Positions 37,596-57,965 of a stretch of DNA of 64,000 bases are shown here, in pieces. Source of the stretch: Anaeromyxobacter dehalogenans 2CP-C (GTDB taxonomy: Bacteria > Myxococcota > Myxococcia > Myxococcales > Anaeromyxobacteraceae). How positions within the stretch are numbered: the first letter of the stretch is position 1; the number at the start of each line of letters is the position of its first letter. Below the pieces are notes generated by a model. The model made no database searches. It saw nothing but the letters and a program-made list of their open reading frames with translations, and had not been told where the DNA came from. Location: the NCBI RefSeq assembly GCF_000013385.1, contig NC_007760.1:310001-374000 (forward strand), read 5' to 3'. The translations under genes and the position numbers were made by a program.

Positions 37596-37658
37596 CGCGG
37601 GCCCCCCGGCGGGCATCCGTGCCCGCACGCGGTGCCCTCGCTCGGGCCTTCTCCTTCC

Positions 37659-37716
37659 CGACCCAGAGTCGTTTCCCCCGACCCAGAGTCGTTTCCCCCG
37701 AACCCAGAGTCGTTGG
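37659..37716 (+). repeat. Tandem array of three REP-like elements
   Basis: Three copies of CGACCCAGAGTCGTTT with 20-bp period start at 37659, 37679 and 37699. The third has one inserted A. Each contains the imperfect palindrome CGACCC-A-GAGTCG. The array lies in the 277-bp gap between the kinase gene and the convergent M16 peptidase gene. The same element recurs at several sites up to 57.8 kb. Confidence 0.85.
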
Positions 37717-37870
37717 CGGTGAGCCCCGAACCGGGCGTCACCGGCAGGCACCCGGGGGTGGCGCCCGCCGCGCGCCCCGCCGTCCGAAGCGCGGCCGCTC
37801 ATTTGCGGGGACTCCTGCGCAAGCGGACGCGAAACGAACGTTCCGCGCCCTCCCCGCGCCCCGTCCCGAA

Positions 37871-37888
37871 AATTACTCTGGGTCGGGG
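37871..37888 (-). repeat. REP-like element overlapping the M16 peptidase stop codon
   Basis: Reading leftward, CCCCGACCCAGAGTAATT contains the element core. Its GAGTAA supplies the last Glu codon and the TAA stop of the peptidase gene, so the element forms the extreme C-terminus (PDPE). Confidence 0.8.
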
Positions 37889-40584
37889 ATGGGGGTGCCG
37901 TCGGGGTCCACCGCCGCCGGCCGCGGGAACCCGGCCTTCTCGAGCTGGGGGACGACGGTCTTCCGGTCGCCGACCAGCACGACCGTGAACCCGCCGAAGG
38001 CGTACGGGCCGGCCTTCGCCTCGGCGGCGGCGCGGGCGGGCTCGACCGCGGTGAGCGCCTCCGCCTCGCGCCGGAGCGCGTCGGGGGGGCGGCCTTCCAG
38101 GACGGCCGCGGCGAGCGCCTCGGCGAGCCCGGCGGTGGTCTGGATCTCCTCCACCGTCCGGTGCCGCGCCGTCTCGCGCGCTTTCGCGGTCTCGGCCGCG
38201 TCCACGCCCGCGGCGGCGAGCCCGTCGAGCTCCCGCCGCAGCTCCACCAGCGCCGCGCCCGTCACCTCGGTCTGCACCGCCGCGCCGGCGGTGAACAGCC
38301 CCTGCCCGCCCTCGGTCGCGAACGCGCTCCGCGCGCCGTAGGTGTAGCCGTGCTTCTCGCGCAGGTTCTGGTTGAGGCGCGAGGTGAAGCTCCCGCCCAG
38401 CACCACGTTCACGAGCTCGCGGAGCGCGCGCGCCGGCTCGGGCGCGGGAGCGACCGGTCGCGCCAGCAGGATGCGGGTCTGCGGGGCGCCGGGCCGGTCC
38501 ACCAGCAGGATGCGCCCGCCCTGGGCCGCGGTCAGCGCGGCCGGGCTCGCCGCGGGCGCGGGACCGGCGCCGCGCCAGGCGCCGAGCCGCGGCGCGAGCA
38601 GCCGCCGGAGCGCCGCCGGATCGACGTCGCCCGCGACCACCAGCGTCGCGCCGCGCGGGTCGAGCAGCCGCGGCGCGAGGCGTCGCACGTCGTCGAGCGT
38701 GACGGTGCGCACCGTGGCGGCCCAGCCGTCCACCGGGCGGCCCCGCGGATCGCCCCGGCCGAAGATCGCGGCCGCGGCCACCACCGGAGCCACCTTGCGC
38801 GGATCGTCGGGCCGGGCCTCCACGCGCGCCAGCGCCAGCGCGGCCTCGCGCTCGAAGTCGGCGCGCGCCAGGTTCGGGCGCAGCACCGCGTCCGCGAAGA
38901 GATCGAGCGCCGGGGCGAGGTGCGCGGAGAGCCCGCTCACCGACACCTGCAAGGACGCGGGCCGCGCCTCGGCCTCGACGCTCGCGCCGAGCGCGCGGAT
39001 CGCGTCGGCGTACTCCGCGGCGCTGCGCCCGCCGGCGCCCGAGGTGAGCAGCTCGGCGAGGATGGGCGCGAGGCCGGCCTTCTCGGCCGGGACCGCCGCG
39101 GCCCCGCCGGGCAGGAGCAGGTGCGCGGCGAACAGCCCGGTGCCCGGGCGCGGGGCGACCCGCACCTCGAGGCCGTTCGCGAGCCGGAACACCTCCGGCG
39201 CGGGCGGGTCGAACGGGCGCGTGGCCAGCGGCGGCGGCGGCGCGTCGGGGATCTCCGCCTTCGCGGCGCCGGCGCCGGCGCGGGCGGGGAGGACGCGCAG
39301 ATCGAGCCGGCCCTCGCCGAGCCCGCGGGCGGCCTCGCGCAGCCCGCCGGCGGTGGCGGAGGTGACGCGGGCGAGGTCGCGGGCGAAGCCGTCCGGCTCG
39401 CCGTAGTAGGCGAGGTACTCGTTCAGCTTGTCGGCACGGTGGACGAGGTGCTCGCGCTCCTCGCGCCGCCGCCGCTCCGCCTGCGCGCGCACGCGGGCCA
39501 GCTCGCGCGCCTCGGGCCCCTTCGCCTGGAGCTCCGCGACCACCGCGAGCGCCTCGCGCTTCACCCGCTCCAGGTCGGCGCCGGGCGTGGCGGTCACCTC
39601 GACGCGGAAGAGCGAGCCGAGCCGCCCGGGGTCGAGGTAGGCGGTGACCGACTCGGCGAGCCGCAGCTCCTGCACCAGCCGACGGTCGAGGCGCGACGAC
39701 GGCCCCTCCGCCAGGACGTCGGCGAGGAGCTCCAGCTCCGCCGAGCCGTCGGCGTAGGCGGCCGGCGCGTGCCACACCAGGATGAGCTTCGGCAGCTCCA
39801 CCCGGTCGGACAGGATCCGGCGGACCTCGCGCTCGAGCCGCACCGGCGCGGCGCGCGCGGGCGCGGGCGGCGCGCGCAGCGGCACCGCGCCGAACATCCT
39901 CTCGACGAGCGGCCGCACCTCGTCGGGCCTGAAGTCGCCCGCCACCACCAGCGTCGCGTTCGCCGGCACGTACCAGGTCCGGAAGAAGCCCTTCACGTCC
40001 TCGAGCGTGGCCGCCTCGAGGTCGGCGTGGCTGCCGATCACCGGGTGGTGGTACGGGTGGCCCTGCGGGTACATGACCTCCGGGATCACCAGCTCGGCCG
40101 CGCCGTACGGCGTGTTCTCGTAGCTCTGCCGCCGCTCGTTGCGCACCACCCCGCGCTGCAGGTCGAGCTTCTCCTGCGTCATGGCGTCGGCGAGCGCCTG
40201 GAGCCGGTCCGCGTCCAGCCAGAGCAGCGTGGGGAGGAGCTGCGACGGCCCCACGCTGAAGTAGTTGGTGCGGTCCGACGAGGTGGAGGCGTTGTTGGAG
40301 CCTCCCCCCGACTCCATGATCACGTCGAAGCGGTTCCCGGGGACGCGGTTCGTCCCCATGAACATGAGGTGCTCGAACAGGTGCGCGAACCCGGTGCGCC
40401 CGGGCGCCTCGTCCTTCGAGCCCACCTGGAACCAGGTGTCCACCGCCACCTGCGGCAACCGGTGGTCGGGCGCGAGCACCACCGTCAGCCCGTTCGGCAG
40501 CGAGAACGTGGTGAGCTCGAGCGGCGGCGCGGCCGGGCCGGCGGCGAGGGCGAGGGCGGCGAGCGTGGCGAGCGGCGCGAGCAT
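37873..40584 (-). CDS. M16 family metallopeptidase with two fused halves
   Basis: Pitrilysin-type zinc protease, 903 aa. A signal peptide (MLAPLATLAALALAAG) is followed by an active N-terminal M16 half with the inverted zinc motif HLFEH (His68, Glu71, His72) and the distal NERRQSYEN Glu region, and a C-terminal half (from about residue 470) lacking the motif but keeping the M16 fold (LREKHGYTYGARSAF). Fused bilobal proteins form a clam-like chamber that degrades peptides. The start ATG at 40584 follows GGAGGAACCCGC; the longer open frame upstream has no homology. The stop codon lies inside a REP-like element. Confidence 0.92.
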   Translation of the reverse strand: MLAPLATLAALALAAGPAAPPLELTTFSLPNGLTVVLAPDHRLPQVAVDTWFQVGSKDEAPGRTGFAHLFEHLMFMGTNRVPGNRFDVIMESGGGSNNASTSSDRTNYFSVGPSQLLPTLLWLDADRLQALADAMTQEKLDLQRGVVRNERRQSYENTPYGAAELVIPEVMYPQGHPYHHPVIGSHADLEAATLEDVKGFFRTWYVPANATLVVAGDFRPDEVRPLVERMFGAVPLRAPPAPARAAPVRLEREVRRILSDRVELPKLILVWHAPAAYADGSAELELLADVLAEGPSSRLDRRLVQELRLAESVTAYLDPGRLGSLFRVEVTATPGADLERVKREALAVVAELQAKGPEARELARVRAQAERRRREEREHLVHRADKLNEYLAYYGEPDGFARDLARVTSATAGGLREAARGLGEGRLDLRVLPARAGAGAAKAEIPDAPPPPLATRPFDPPAPEVFRLANGLEVRVAPRPGTGLFAAHLLLPGGAAAVPAEKAGLAPILAELLTSGAGGRSAAEYADAIRALGASVEAEARPASLQVSVSGLSAHLAPALDLFADAVLRPNLARADFEREAALALARVEARPDDPRKVAPVVAAAAIFGRGDPRGRPVDGWAATVRTVTLDDVRRLAPRLLDPRGATLVVAGDVDPAALRRLLAPRLGAWRGAGPAPAASPAALTAAQGGRILLVDRPGAPQTRILLARPVAPAPEPARALRELVNVVLGGSFTSRLNQNLREKHGYTYGARSAFATEGGQGLFTAGAAVQTEVTGAALVELRRELDGLAAAGVDAAETAKARETARHRTVEEIQTTAGLAEALAAAVLEGRPPDALRREAEALTAVEPARAAAEAKAGPYAFGGFTVVLVGDRKTVVPQLEKAGFPRPAAVDPDGTPIPDPE

Positions 40585-40673
40585 GCGGGTTCCTCCGGAG
40601 CGGGCAGGAAAGCACGCCTGCGGCACGGCGTCACGCAGCGCGAACGGCCGCGCCGCGGTGGTAGAACGGGGCC

Positions 40674-40772
40674 GTGCGCCAGAAGCTCGCGCTGCTCGCC
40701 GCGCTGGCGGTGGGGGTGATCCTCCTCGCCGCGGCGGCGCTGTTCGCGCTCGCCCGGAGCCTCGCGCCATGA
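40674..40772 (+). CDS. Small membrane peptide coupled to the ferric reductase
   Basis: A 32-codon frame from a GTG, MRQKLALLAALAVGVILL and on to SLAP, is one hydrophobic helix flanked by basic residues. Its stop overlaps the ATG of the ferric-reductase-like gene (ATGA). It resembles the small single-helix subunits that accompany membrane oxidoreductases, but no family is recognised. Coupled translation and clean topology argue for a real gene. Confidence 0.5.
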   Translation: MRQKLALLAALAVGVILLAAAALFALARSLAP

Positions 40773-50165: not shown

Positions 50166-51359
50166 TTGGGCGCCGCCGCACGCCGCGCGCTCGCCGGCGC
50201 GCTCGCCCTCGCCGCCGCGATGGGGATCGGACGGTTCGCGTACACCGCGCTCCTGCCCGGCGTGCAGCGCGGGCTCGGGTTCGACGACGCCGCCGGCGGG
50301 GCCATCGCGTCGGCCAACCTGGTCGGCTACCTCGCCGGCGTGCTCTGGGCGCGGCGCCTCGCCGGGAGCGCGCGGCGCGGCGCGGCGCTGCGGCTCGGCC
50401 TGGCGGCGACCGCCGTGCTCACCGCGGCCGTCACCGCGGTCGGCTCCGAGATGGGGTGGGCCGCCGTGCGCTTCGGCTCCGGCGTCGCGAGCGGGCTCGT
50501 GTTCGTGCTCGCGTCCGCCGCCGCGCTCGAGGTCGCCCCCGGCCACCTTCCCCGACCCGGAGTACTTTACGGCGGGGTGGGGGTCGGGATCGCGCTCGCG
50601 GCCGTGGTCGCGGCGGTGGCGCCCCCTGCCGGGGGTTGGCGCATCCCGTGGTGGGTGCTGGGGGGCGCGGCGGCTGCGCTGGCGGTGCCGGGGTGGAGGG
50701 ATCTGTCCGCGCCGCTCGCGCACGACTCTGGGTCGGGAGGAGCGGGGTCGGGAGGAGCGGCGGTCGCGAGCGGGAGGGGCCGCCCAGCGGTCGGCTTCGG
50801 GCGGCTTGCGACCGCGTACTTCCTCGAGGGGCTCGGCTACATCGTGAGCGGGACGTTCGCGGTGGCGGCGGTCCGGCGGACGCCCGGGCTGGAGGCGCTC
50901 GCGCCGTGGACGTGGGCCATGGCGGGCCTCGCGGCCGCCCCGTCCGCGCTGCTCTGGGCGTCGTTCGGGCGCCGGGTCGGCGTTCGGTCCGCGCTGGTCG
51001 CGGCGCACCTCGTCCAGGCGGCGGGCATGGCGCTGCCGTCGCTGTCCTCGGCCGCCTGGGCCGCCCTCGCGGGCGCGGCGCTGTTCGGCGGAACGTTCAT
51101 CGGGATCACCACGCTGACGGTGGCGGCCGCGCGCGAGATCCGGCCGAACGCGCTCGGGCGCGCCGTGGGAACGCTCACCGCCATCTACGGCGTCGGCCAG
51201 ATCGTCGGCCCGCTGGCCGCCGGAGCCGTCGCGCAGCACCTCGGCGATCCGAGGCCCGCCGTGCTCGGCGCCGCCGCCGCGGTCGCCCTCGGCGCGGTCG
51301 TCCTCCTCATGCCCTCGCGTCCGTCCGTGATGGCCCCGGCTCCGGATCGGGGACGCTGA
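50166..51359 (+). CDS. YbfB/YjiJ-family MFS transporter
   Basis: 397-aa transporter with twelve predicted hydrophobic helices. The family motif MGIGRFAYTALLPG is in the first helix, and PNALGRAVGTLTAIYGVGQIVGPL is near the last helices. I choose the TTG at 50166; an ATG at 50219 would cut the first helix, and upstream codons overlap the previous gene. The segment HDSGSGGAGSGGA in the central cytoplasmic loop (about residue 190) is encoded by a REP-like element, and a second, weaker copy lies in helix 5/6 (LPRPGVLYGG). Substrate unknown. Confidence 0.8.
   Translation: MGAAARRALAGALALAAAMGIGRFAYTALLPGVQRGLGFDDAAGGAIASANLVGYLAGVLWARRLAGSARRGAALRLGLAATAVLTAAVTAVGSEMGWAAVRFGSGVASGLVFVLASAAALEVAPGHLPRPGVLYGGVGVGIALAAVVAAVAPPAGGWRIPWWVLGGAAAALAVPGWRDLSAPLAHDSGSGGAGSGGAAVASGRGRPAVGFGRLATAYFLEGLGYIVSGTFAVAAVRRTPGLEALAPWTWAMAGLAAAPSALLWASFGRRVGVRSALVAAHLVQAAGMALPSLSSAAWAALAGAALFGGTFIGITTLTVAAAREIRPNALGRAVGTLTAIYGVGQIVGPLAAGAVAQHLGDPRPAVLGAAAAVALGAVVLLMPSRPSVMAPAPDRGR
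50551..50568 (+). repeat. Variant REP-like element inside the MFS gene
   Basis: CCCGACCCGGAGTACTTT matches the dispersed element at 14 of its first 16 positions. It encodes part of a membrane segment of the transporter, so it may be coincidental or an adapted insertion. Confidence 0.5.
50722..50737 (-). repeat. REP-like element inside the MFS gene
   Basis: ACGACTCTGGGTCGGG is the exact complement of the dispersed core, followed by GGAG and a second partial copy (GGGTCGGGAGGAG). It codes for a Gly/Ser-rich stretch in the central loop of the transporter, where an in-frame insertion would be tolerated. Confidence 0.75.
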
Positions 51360-51373
51360 CCTCGCGCGAGGCG

Positions 51374-52267
51374 TTACCCGGGCGCGCAGCGCACGCCGTG
51401 TGCCACGCGGAGCCGGTACGTGCCGCTCGGGAAGACCACGTCGCGCAGCCCGGCGCGCAAGGCCTTCAGCGCCTCGCGGTAGTCGTCGAGGAAGGTCCGG
51501 AGCCGCCCGAGCGCCTCGATCCGCTTCCACTTGTCGCGCGCGCCCACCCTCGGCTTCGGGCCGCGGCGCGGCGCCACGGTCGCGGGGCGCGCGTTCGGGC
51601 TCTGCGCGAGCACGCGGCGCACGCCGAGGAAGGTCCGCCCTTCGGCCTTCAAGCGCTCGGTGGCGACGAGCTCGCGCCGGGTGCTCGCATCGACGAGGCG
51701 ATCCCGGAACTGCACCACGTCGTCGAAGCCGGGCGGCAGCGTGAGCTCGAGCTCGACCGACTCCGGCATGCTGCCGTTGCGACGGAAGAAGTGCTCCGGC
51801 CGCCTCGCGACGATGGGGCCGGCACCGATCCGCTCGGGCGACGACCAGAGCCCTGGCCACTCCGACCCCCTCGAGACCAGCCCCGCCGACACGGGGTTCG
51901 CGAGCGCGTAGGCGAGGGTGTCGACCACGTCGTCCGGCGTCGCGAGCGCCACCGCGCTGTAGCTGCCGGAGGCCCAGAACGCCTCCCAGCGGCCCAGCGC
52001 CGCGTTGATCGACCGCGCCACCAGGGAATCGAGGTACTGCTCGAACGCGGGCAGGCGCGCGCCGGGGTCGGTCAGCACCAGGTGGAAGTGGTTGGAGAGC
52101 ACGCAGAAGCCGTGCAGGAGCAGCCCGTAGCGTCGGAGGGCGACCCCGAGCACGTACAGGAAGGTCTCGTTCACGAGCTCCGACGGACGCAGGAGCAGGT
52201 CGCGCTGCGCGCAGCGGCGCGTGACGTGGTAGGTGACACCGGAGAGAACCTGGCGCGGAGCGGTCAT
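51374..52267 (-). CDS. REP-associated tyrosine transposase (RAYT / Y1_Tnp family)
   Basis: 297-aa protein with an IS200-like Y1 transposase domain. It begins MTAPRQVLSGVTYHVTRRCA and has the HUH metal-binding motif His60-Phe-His62 in CVLSNHFHLVLTD, followed by the helical core (ALANPVSAGLV) typical of RAYTs. The extension after about residue 170 is basic. RAYTs are single-copy relatives of IS200 transposases that bind and mobilise REP elements. There are no terminal IS ends or target duplications here, but REP-like elements flank it on both sides. ATG at 52267. Confidence 0.88.
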   Translation of the reverse strand: MTAPRQVLSGVTYHVTRRCAQRDLLLRPSELVNETFLYVLGVALRRYGLLLHGFCVLSNHFHLVLTDPGARLPAFEQYLDSLVARSINAALGRWEAFWASGSYSAVALATPDDVVDTLAYALANPVSAGLVSRGSEWPGLWSSPERIGAGPIVARRPEHFFRRNGSMPESVELELTLPPGFDDVVQFRDRLVDASTRRELVATERLKAEGRTFLGVRRVLAQSPNARPATVAPRRGPKPRVGARDKWKRIEALGRLRTFLDDYREALKALRAGLRDVVFPSGTYRLRVAHGVRCAPG

Positions 52268-52367
52268 GCCTCGCCCCGAGGCACACGCCGTGCCGGCGAA
52301 AAGGGCGCCCGGTTCGCCTGCTTGCGGCTGGCGACCGTCCGAATCGCGGACGCACCGGCCGAAACGC

Positions 52368-52384
52368 ATTACTCTGGGTCGGGG
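52368..52384 (-). repeat. REP-like element upstream of the RAYT gene
   Basis: ATTACTCTGGGTCGGGG, read leftward CCCCGACCCAGAGTAAT, is nearly identical to the copy at 37871. It lies 100 nt upstream of the RAYT start, between this gene and the divergent tautomerase gene, where REP elements bound by a RAYT are often found. Confidence 0.8.
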
Positions 52385-57563: not shown

Positions 57564-57965
57564 CTCTTCCTGGGGCGGTGAAGCGTGGGTTTCTCGCCTA
57601 CGTCTCGCCGGACCCGAACGGGCCATTGGGGCTGTGCCCGAGCAGGGGGCGTCCGGCGCTGCCTTGGCGCTGCTCTCCTCCTCCTCCTCCCGACCCAGAG
57701 TCGTTTGGTGTTCACCCGGAGTCGTTTCATCCGGGCCCGCGCCCCGCCCGAGGCCTCCCGCTCCTGACCCAGAGCCGTTGGCAGCCCGCCGGCACCTCAC
57801 CCAGAGTCGTTCGACGCCCGGCGCATCTCGGCTCCCGCCCCATCCGGTCCCCCCACACCACCCCCGCCCCTCCCGGCGCCCGTCACGCGCCGGTCACGCC
57901 CCCGGTCTTATGACCCGCACTGGCCGGGCCCCGTGGCCCGCGCCGTTCCCTGGGGGGGAAACCGC
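57564..57965. other. Intergenic region with REP-like element cluster
   Basis: About 400 bases between divergent regulator genes. Short frames on both strands have no family resemblance. Apart from the four REP-like elements at 57691-57812 I see no convincing promoter boxes or hairpins. Confidence 0.6.
57691..57812 (+). repeat. Cluster of four REP-like elements
   Basis: Copies of the dispersed element lie at 57691 (CGACCCAGAGTCGTTT, exact), 57713 (CACCCGGAGTCGTTT), 57765 (TGACCCAGAGCCGTT) and 57798 (TCACCCAGAGTCGTTC). All have the same orientation and irregular spacing of 22 to 52 nt. Confidence 0.82.

Follow-up and report, generated by a model that had tools for sequence, protein, structure and literature searches.

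A terminal repeat tip of a Y1 transposase family as the probable source of the stop codon of an M16 peptidase gene in Anaeromyxobacter dehalogenans

Introduction

TIRtrons are RAYT-like genes that are flanked by TIRs (terminal inverted repeats), and TIR families also occur as dimers and in clusters. The motif GGGGWSAS is common to part of the published TIRs, not to all of them. The termini of GTAG REPs often provide a TAG stop codon to flanking ORFs (Di Nocera et al. 2013, PMC3733652). Anaeromyxobacter does not occur in the main text of that paper. The classes of Y1 transposases, including class 2 with TnpA-REP, have their own signatures, and a large survey found no REP for subclasses 2.1 and 2.3 of Y1 class 2 (PMC6006769).

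Here, we analyze a repeat at the 3' end of a gene for an M16 peptidase. The gene lies in a stretch of 64,000 nucleotides (the window) from A. dehalogenans 2CP-C (G000), which belongs, with G001 and G004, to the three closest strains of our comparison. A published description of this repeat in Anaeromyxobacter was not found in the literature searched, which left out most subscription journals.

Results and Discussion

The last codons of the M16 gene

According to the original prediction, the last four codons (PDPE) and the TAA stop codon of the M16 gene are formed by a mobile-like element. The assignment is exact. The plus strand at 37873-37888 is TTACTCTGGGTCGGGG, which reads CCCCGACCCAGAGTAA on the minus strand (37888-37873) and is in frame with the ORF at 37873-40770(-). 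Both M16 Pfam domains are present in the product, which ends in ..VDPDGTPIPDPE directly before the stop codon. With up to three mismatches, the repeat has seven matches in the window, where 0.36 are expected. The copy at the M16 end faces outward and forms a pair with three inverted copies (37657-37710) that follow the stop codon at a distance of about 160 bp (Table 1). No further full copy of the spacer between them was found among 9 genomes.

Table 1. Features of the window (positions are window coordinates)
Feature	Position	Strand	Remark
M16 peptidase gene	37873..40770	-	ORF of 965 aa; true start possibly further in
Element tip at M16 end	37873..37888	+	on minus strand CCC GAC CCA GAG TAA, i.e. 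PDPE and stop
Tip copy, inverted relative to 37873-37888	37657..37669	-	
Tip copy, inverted	37677..37689	-	
Tip copy, inverted	37698..37710	-	ACTCTGGGTTCGG
Spacer between outward-facing tips	37711..37870	.	kept in G001 and G004
Tip copy behind transposase gene, inside MFS_4 gene	50551..50563	-	also in G004 and G001
Tip copy inside same MFS_4 gene (50166-51359)	50725..50737	+	
Y1/HUH tyrosine transposase gene	51374..52267	-	297 aa, RAYT-like
Full transposase-side end (tip and GTCCG...CGGAC inverted repeat)	52330..52384	-	tip 103 bp before transposase gene
Tip copy in divergent intergenic region	57689..57701	-	

The repeat as the end of a transposase unit

The genome codes for four full Y1/HUH transposases, one of them in the window. 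A gene of this type at 4.604-4.605 Mb is flanked by two outward-facing tip groups. We compared 30 gene copies from 13 genomes of the family, which include orthologs and near-identical copies and hence are not independent: the tip GACC[C/G]AGAGT (GACCSAGAGT, at most one mismatch) is found upstream of 29 of them, usually at a distance of 101-117 bp from the start codon (set by eye in some cases), and an inverted copy follows within 900 bp behind 27 of the 29 that could be tested. Tips in the wrong orientation are rare (1/30 upstream, 4/29 downstream). Three of four further family members also carry the tip upstream. For transposase L185, from a different family within the class, 3 mismatches to the tip were counted, and for six distant homologs (L186-L191) 3-4; this would be expected of a tip that belongs to this transposase subfamily.

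A profile was built from 17 ends of other species. Its best hits in this genome are the five transposase-side ends (E 3.4e-10 to 1.4e-6); the M16 copy is second best among the remaining sites, over the 17-nt tip only (E 0.25). G017 has two copies of a transposase unit of 1,283 bp (99.2% identity); both edges coincide with tips, and the flanks are unlike; the second copy starts 3 nt past an apparent TAG stop codon. In G004, a truncated transposase copy starts at a tip and breaks off within the gene where the next tip begins. The variant that is dispersed in a genome varies with the one at the transposase ends of that genome. ACTCTCGGTCNGG has 20, 47, 14, 20 and 18 copies in G002, G003, G005, G006 and G012, and 0 to 1 in G000, G001 and G004; for ACTCTGGGTCGGGG, the counts are 3, 2, 2, 2 and 0 in the former five and 17, 19 and 12 in the latter three. 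Because of the fixed place around transposase genes, the recovery by the profile, the tip-bounded duplicate in G017 and the truncated copy in G004, the tip is, on sequence grounds, the end of a mobile unit, namely the terminal inverted repeat of a Y1/HUH transposase family.

A conserved hairpin beside the tip is not claimed. The GTCCG-CGGAC repeat is 83% paired, but its covariation is as in shuffles (171/500). An alternative pairing has weak covariation (15/500 shuffles), and RNAalifold yielded no structure for the ends next to the tip.

The transposase has the H-x-H motif and the catalytic tyrosine (H60, H62 and Y120), which are invariant in 15 aligned proteins. All 15 also contain Y...NP, as in TnpA-REP class 2. 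Six members match NF047646 (REP-associated tyrosine transposase) at E 3.7e-17 to 1.9e-11, the window protein being the weakest, with scores of 44-63 that are all below the curated cut-off of 80. The E-value for Pfam Y1_Tnp is 0.036 for one member, scanned with that profile alone, and profile matches to the solved TnpA chains 2xm3 and 2f4f are marginal (E 0.007 and 0.024). An AlphaFold model from the single sequence reached a pLDDT of 38. A transposase match at E 1e-40 or better is present in 24 of 195 genomes of the phylum, 17 of them in this family. G003 appears to be an expanded relative, with at least 12 matches at this threshold besides its 47 ACTCTCGGTCNGG tips. In G007, transposase copies that are truncated to the first ~120 residues plus the end recur every ~3.3 kb at 96-99% identity, with long flanking repeats, and form a local amplification array.

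The M16 gene in related genomes

The M16 tails are PIPDPE in G000, PVPDPE in G004 and PVPAIPVPE in G001, and CCAGAGTAATTTTCG is found in all three strains; the G001 tip differs in one base (GTCC instead of GACC). Tails without the motif are PIPADRAAAR in A. oryzae, EGRPAGR in G012 and one MAG, and EGNIQHETKQ and others elsewhere. An ending common to all orthologs was looked for and is not seen: beyond the three closest strains, the orthologs end differently and lack the motif. As the motif is also the end of a transposase family, the proposed origin of PDPE and the stop codon from a mobile-type element is supported. Since the three closest strains share the ending and the other orthologs, which are devoid of the motif, end otherwise, a single event in the ancestor of these strains, in which the element provided the stop codon, is the most likely history. 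A syntenic empty site at the M16 3' end was not found, and A. oryzae has a different neighbor downstream of M16; we thus infer the insertion from the shared ending and not from an observed presence and absence. The three inverted tips downstream of M16 are present in G000 and G001 and absent from G004. G004 keeps the M16 tip without these partners, so that the stop codon can be explained without the tip pair.

The gene might have ended at this place anyway, its native PDPE-TAA tail resembling the repeat by drift or chance. The tail of the A. oryzae protein, the nearest outgroup (73% identity), is also rich in proline and acidic residues, and the M16 copy has only the tip (16-23 nt matched) in common with the transposase ends, without the rest of the 55-nt end. 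However, the copy is an exact 16-base match to a repeat for which only 0.36 matches are expected in the window at three mismatches, the alignment with the A. oryzae ortholog breaks off at the first bases of the motif, and three inverted copies stand nearby in two strains. We consider a native tail improbable.

The element was also predicted to have altered the C-terminus. The ending does differ from that of the other orthologs, but the tails diverge directly after the DxxGxP region in all orthologs with a readable end. The change thus touched a freely varying tail, and this part of the prediction is weak. A functional effect of the changed tail is doubtful because the tail varies in every ortholog read to its end; presumably, the change was neutral.

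Distribution of the tip in the genome

The 14-mer ACTCTGGGTCGGGG has 17 occurrences in the genome, whose sequence does not contain its reversal. The pattern NACTCYGGGTYNGG has 42 sites, tandem copies among them not being independent, versus 2 for the reversed pattern. The sites form 20 clusters (226-260, 347-368 and 417 kb; 2.41-2.44, 4.60 and 4.73 Mb). By a crude, home-made gene call, 35 are intergenic, though 88% of the DNA read is coding. Selection for positions at gene ends, which had been offered as another explanation, is not established: 13 of the 35 intergenic sites are between convergent genes, not clearly above the convergent share of intergenic DNA (5,448 of 24,141 bp). The form TTAC/CTAC, which gives TAA or TAG, accounts for just 12 of the 42 sites; the commonest form, CGAC (22 sites), has no stop codon at that place. 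This commonest form, CGACTCTGGGTCG, is an imperfect inverted repeat (CGAC/GTCG) and is at none of the transposase-side ends of this genome, which carry TTAC or CTAC.

Such a distribution could also be that of binding sites for a regulator or a nucleoid protein, with a secondary link to the transposase. Some copies closely precede a start codon (the one at 52371-52383, for example, is located 47 bp ahead of a tautomerase gene), and 11 of the 42 sites are between divergent genes. Binding sites do not account for the fixed position and inverted order of tips at transposase genes throughout a family, for motifs that change between genomes together with the transposase ends, or for the tip-bounded duplication in G017. 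Nor are the motif columns better kept between G000 and G004 than the rest (276/338 versus 2659/3388 matched, p 0.19; 12 intergenic stretches, including the array at 347657 of the genome, which is absent from G004), and constraint on the motif is not claimed. This explanation is highly improbable.

Several tip arrays have a tandem unit spacing of 20-21 bp. Between G000 and G004, most tip positions are common, and copy numbers differ by tandem units, which suggests that these strains may have little activity at present. The tips may thus have spread mainly by slippage and recombination of ~21-bp units, without transposase activity today, and most dispersed copies indeed share just the tip with the transposase ends. 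Slippage does not, however, bring a tip to a new location such as the M16 end, and it leaves the tip-bounded 1.28-kb duplicate unexplained. As a general account, we rate it as rather unlikely, but it can hold for the arrays while transposition holds for the founding copies. Near 2.424-2.435 Mb, tip clusters fall where synteny between G000 and G004 breaks or the order changes.

Of the 13 site clusters in G000 at a distance of >1 kb from any transposase gene, 9 have such a gene within 20 kb, compared to 3.3% of the genome (binomial p 2.7e-11, clusters being treated as independent). Local spread as a rule was rejected: the G006 sites away from its transposases (1.64, 4.29-4.35 and 4.61 Mb) are not near one, so that local spread is not general.

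Other genes at tips

Further genes that end in PDPE from the same DNA were sought, as had been proposed, and two additional gene families were found. A DUF4032/Kdo-like kinase gene by the 2.44-Mb transposase has an element-made PDPE and stop codon in G000, G004 and G001. The same holds for an ORF in G017, which we take to be nitroreductase-like from its sequence; a part translation of it gave no match in Pfam. Three gene families stop at the tip in frame 0, and others read through it in frames 0, 1 and 2 (coding score >25). A frame preference for the stop was considered and dropped, the three stopping families being too few to test.

Tips are also found within genes. Those in the MFS_4 transporter gene face outward, and the one at 50725-50737 codes for a stretch rich in Gly and Ser, which might be a linker derived from element DNA. 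A WecG/TagA glycosyltransferase gene (about 252.2-252.3 kb in G000) reads through three tips, so that its product has a C-terminal tail containing NDSGFG and NDSGSG. In this product, the Pfam domain stops at residue 222 of 294, and the tail is similar in G004 and G001.

A proposed origin of the stop codon

We consider it likely that the TIR of a TIRYT/RAYT-type element has the motif as its outer tip and that a copy landed at the M16 3' end before the three closest strains diverged from one another. The tip would be the outer part of the TIR of the Y1 transposase that is encoded at 51374-52267 and at three more places in the genome. It may have arrived alone or as the end of a small non-autonomous pair. 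Read from outside, it is GAC CCA GAG TAA/TAG, and a gene entering in that frame gets D-P-E and a stop codon at once. The transposase would cut a single strand near the tip and join it elsewhere, as described for TnpA-REP (PMC8266576). Both arrival of the M16 copy by transposition, judged from sequence comparison, and cleavage of single-stranded DNA at the tip or close to it, by analogy, are presumed; neither a target-site duplication nor movement of the tip was seen.

The tip might even be kept as a portable stop codon. Ends in D-P-E and stop would make a landing in the last codons harmless, and short hops around the transposase gene on single-stranded DNA would cap neighboring genes. We regard this as decidedly improbable.

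Comparison with known systems

A so-far unexplained repeat of Anaeromyxobacteraceae is tied to a defined transposase and tip, which makes these short repeats annotatable. The case adds gene families with an element-made stop codon, in a genus whose sister genomes might reveal how such ends are acquired. The Y1 subclasses 2.1 and 2.3 (PMC6006769) may merit a second look for short TIR tips.

The HUH motif and catalytic tyrosine core are shared with IS200/IS605, but Y...NP replaces Y...Q, and true terminal inverted repeats are present. RAYTs with REP/REPIN (TnpA-REP) share the class-2 signature (NHuH and Y...NP), the NF047646 match and cognate outward-facing repeats that are mostly intergenic, and GTAG REP termini often provide the TAG stop codon of flanking ORFs (PMC3733652). 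Unlike in REPs and REPtrons, a GT[AG]G foot is in just 5 of 29 ends, and NF047646 scores are below the cut-off. For the hairpin, covariation is at the level of shuffles or weak. TIRYTs/TIRtrons, as far as the same source describes them, also have a RAYT-like Y1 transposase flanked, at a similar distance from the gene, by TIRs that are unrelated to GTAG REPs, with TIR copies elsewhere as singles, dimers and clusters (here, 42 sites in 20 clusters). The tip differs, being GACCSAGAGT, and GGGGWSAS is in 0 of 29 ends (55 nt, either strand). As GTAG foot and GGGGWSAS both fail, we place the element, from its sequence features, among the TIRYTs, with a new type of TIR, and not among the REPs. It would thus belong to an already described kind, stop-giving REP termini and TIR-flanked transposases both being known from PMC3733652, to which the M16 gene adds a modest further example.
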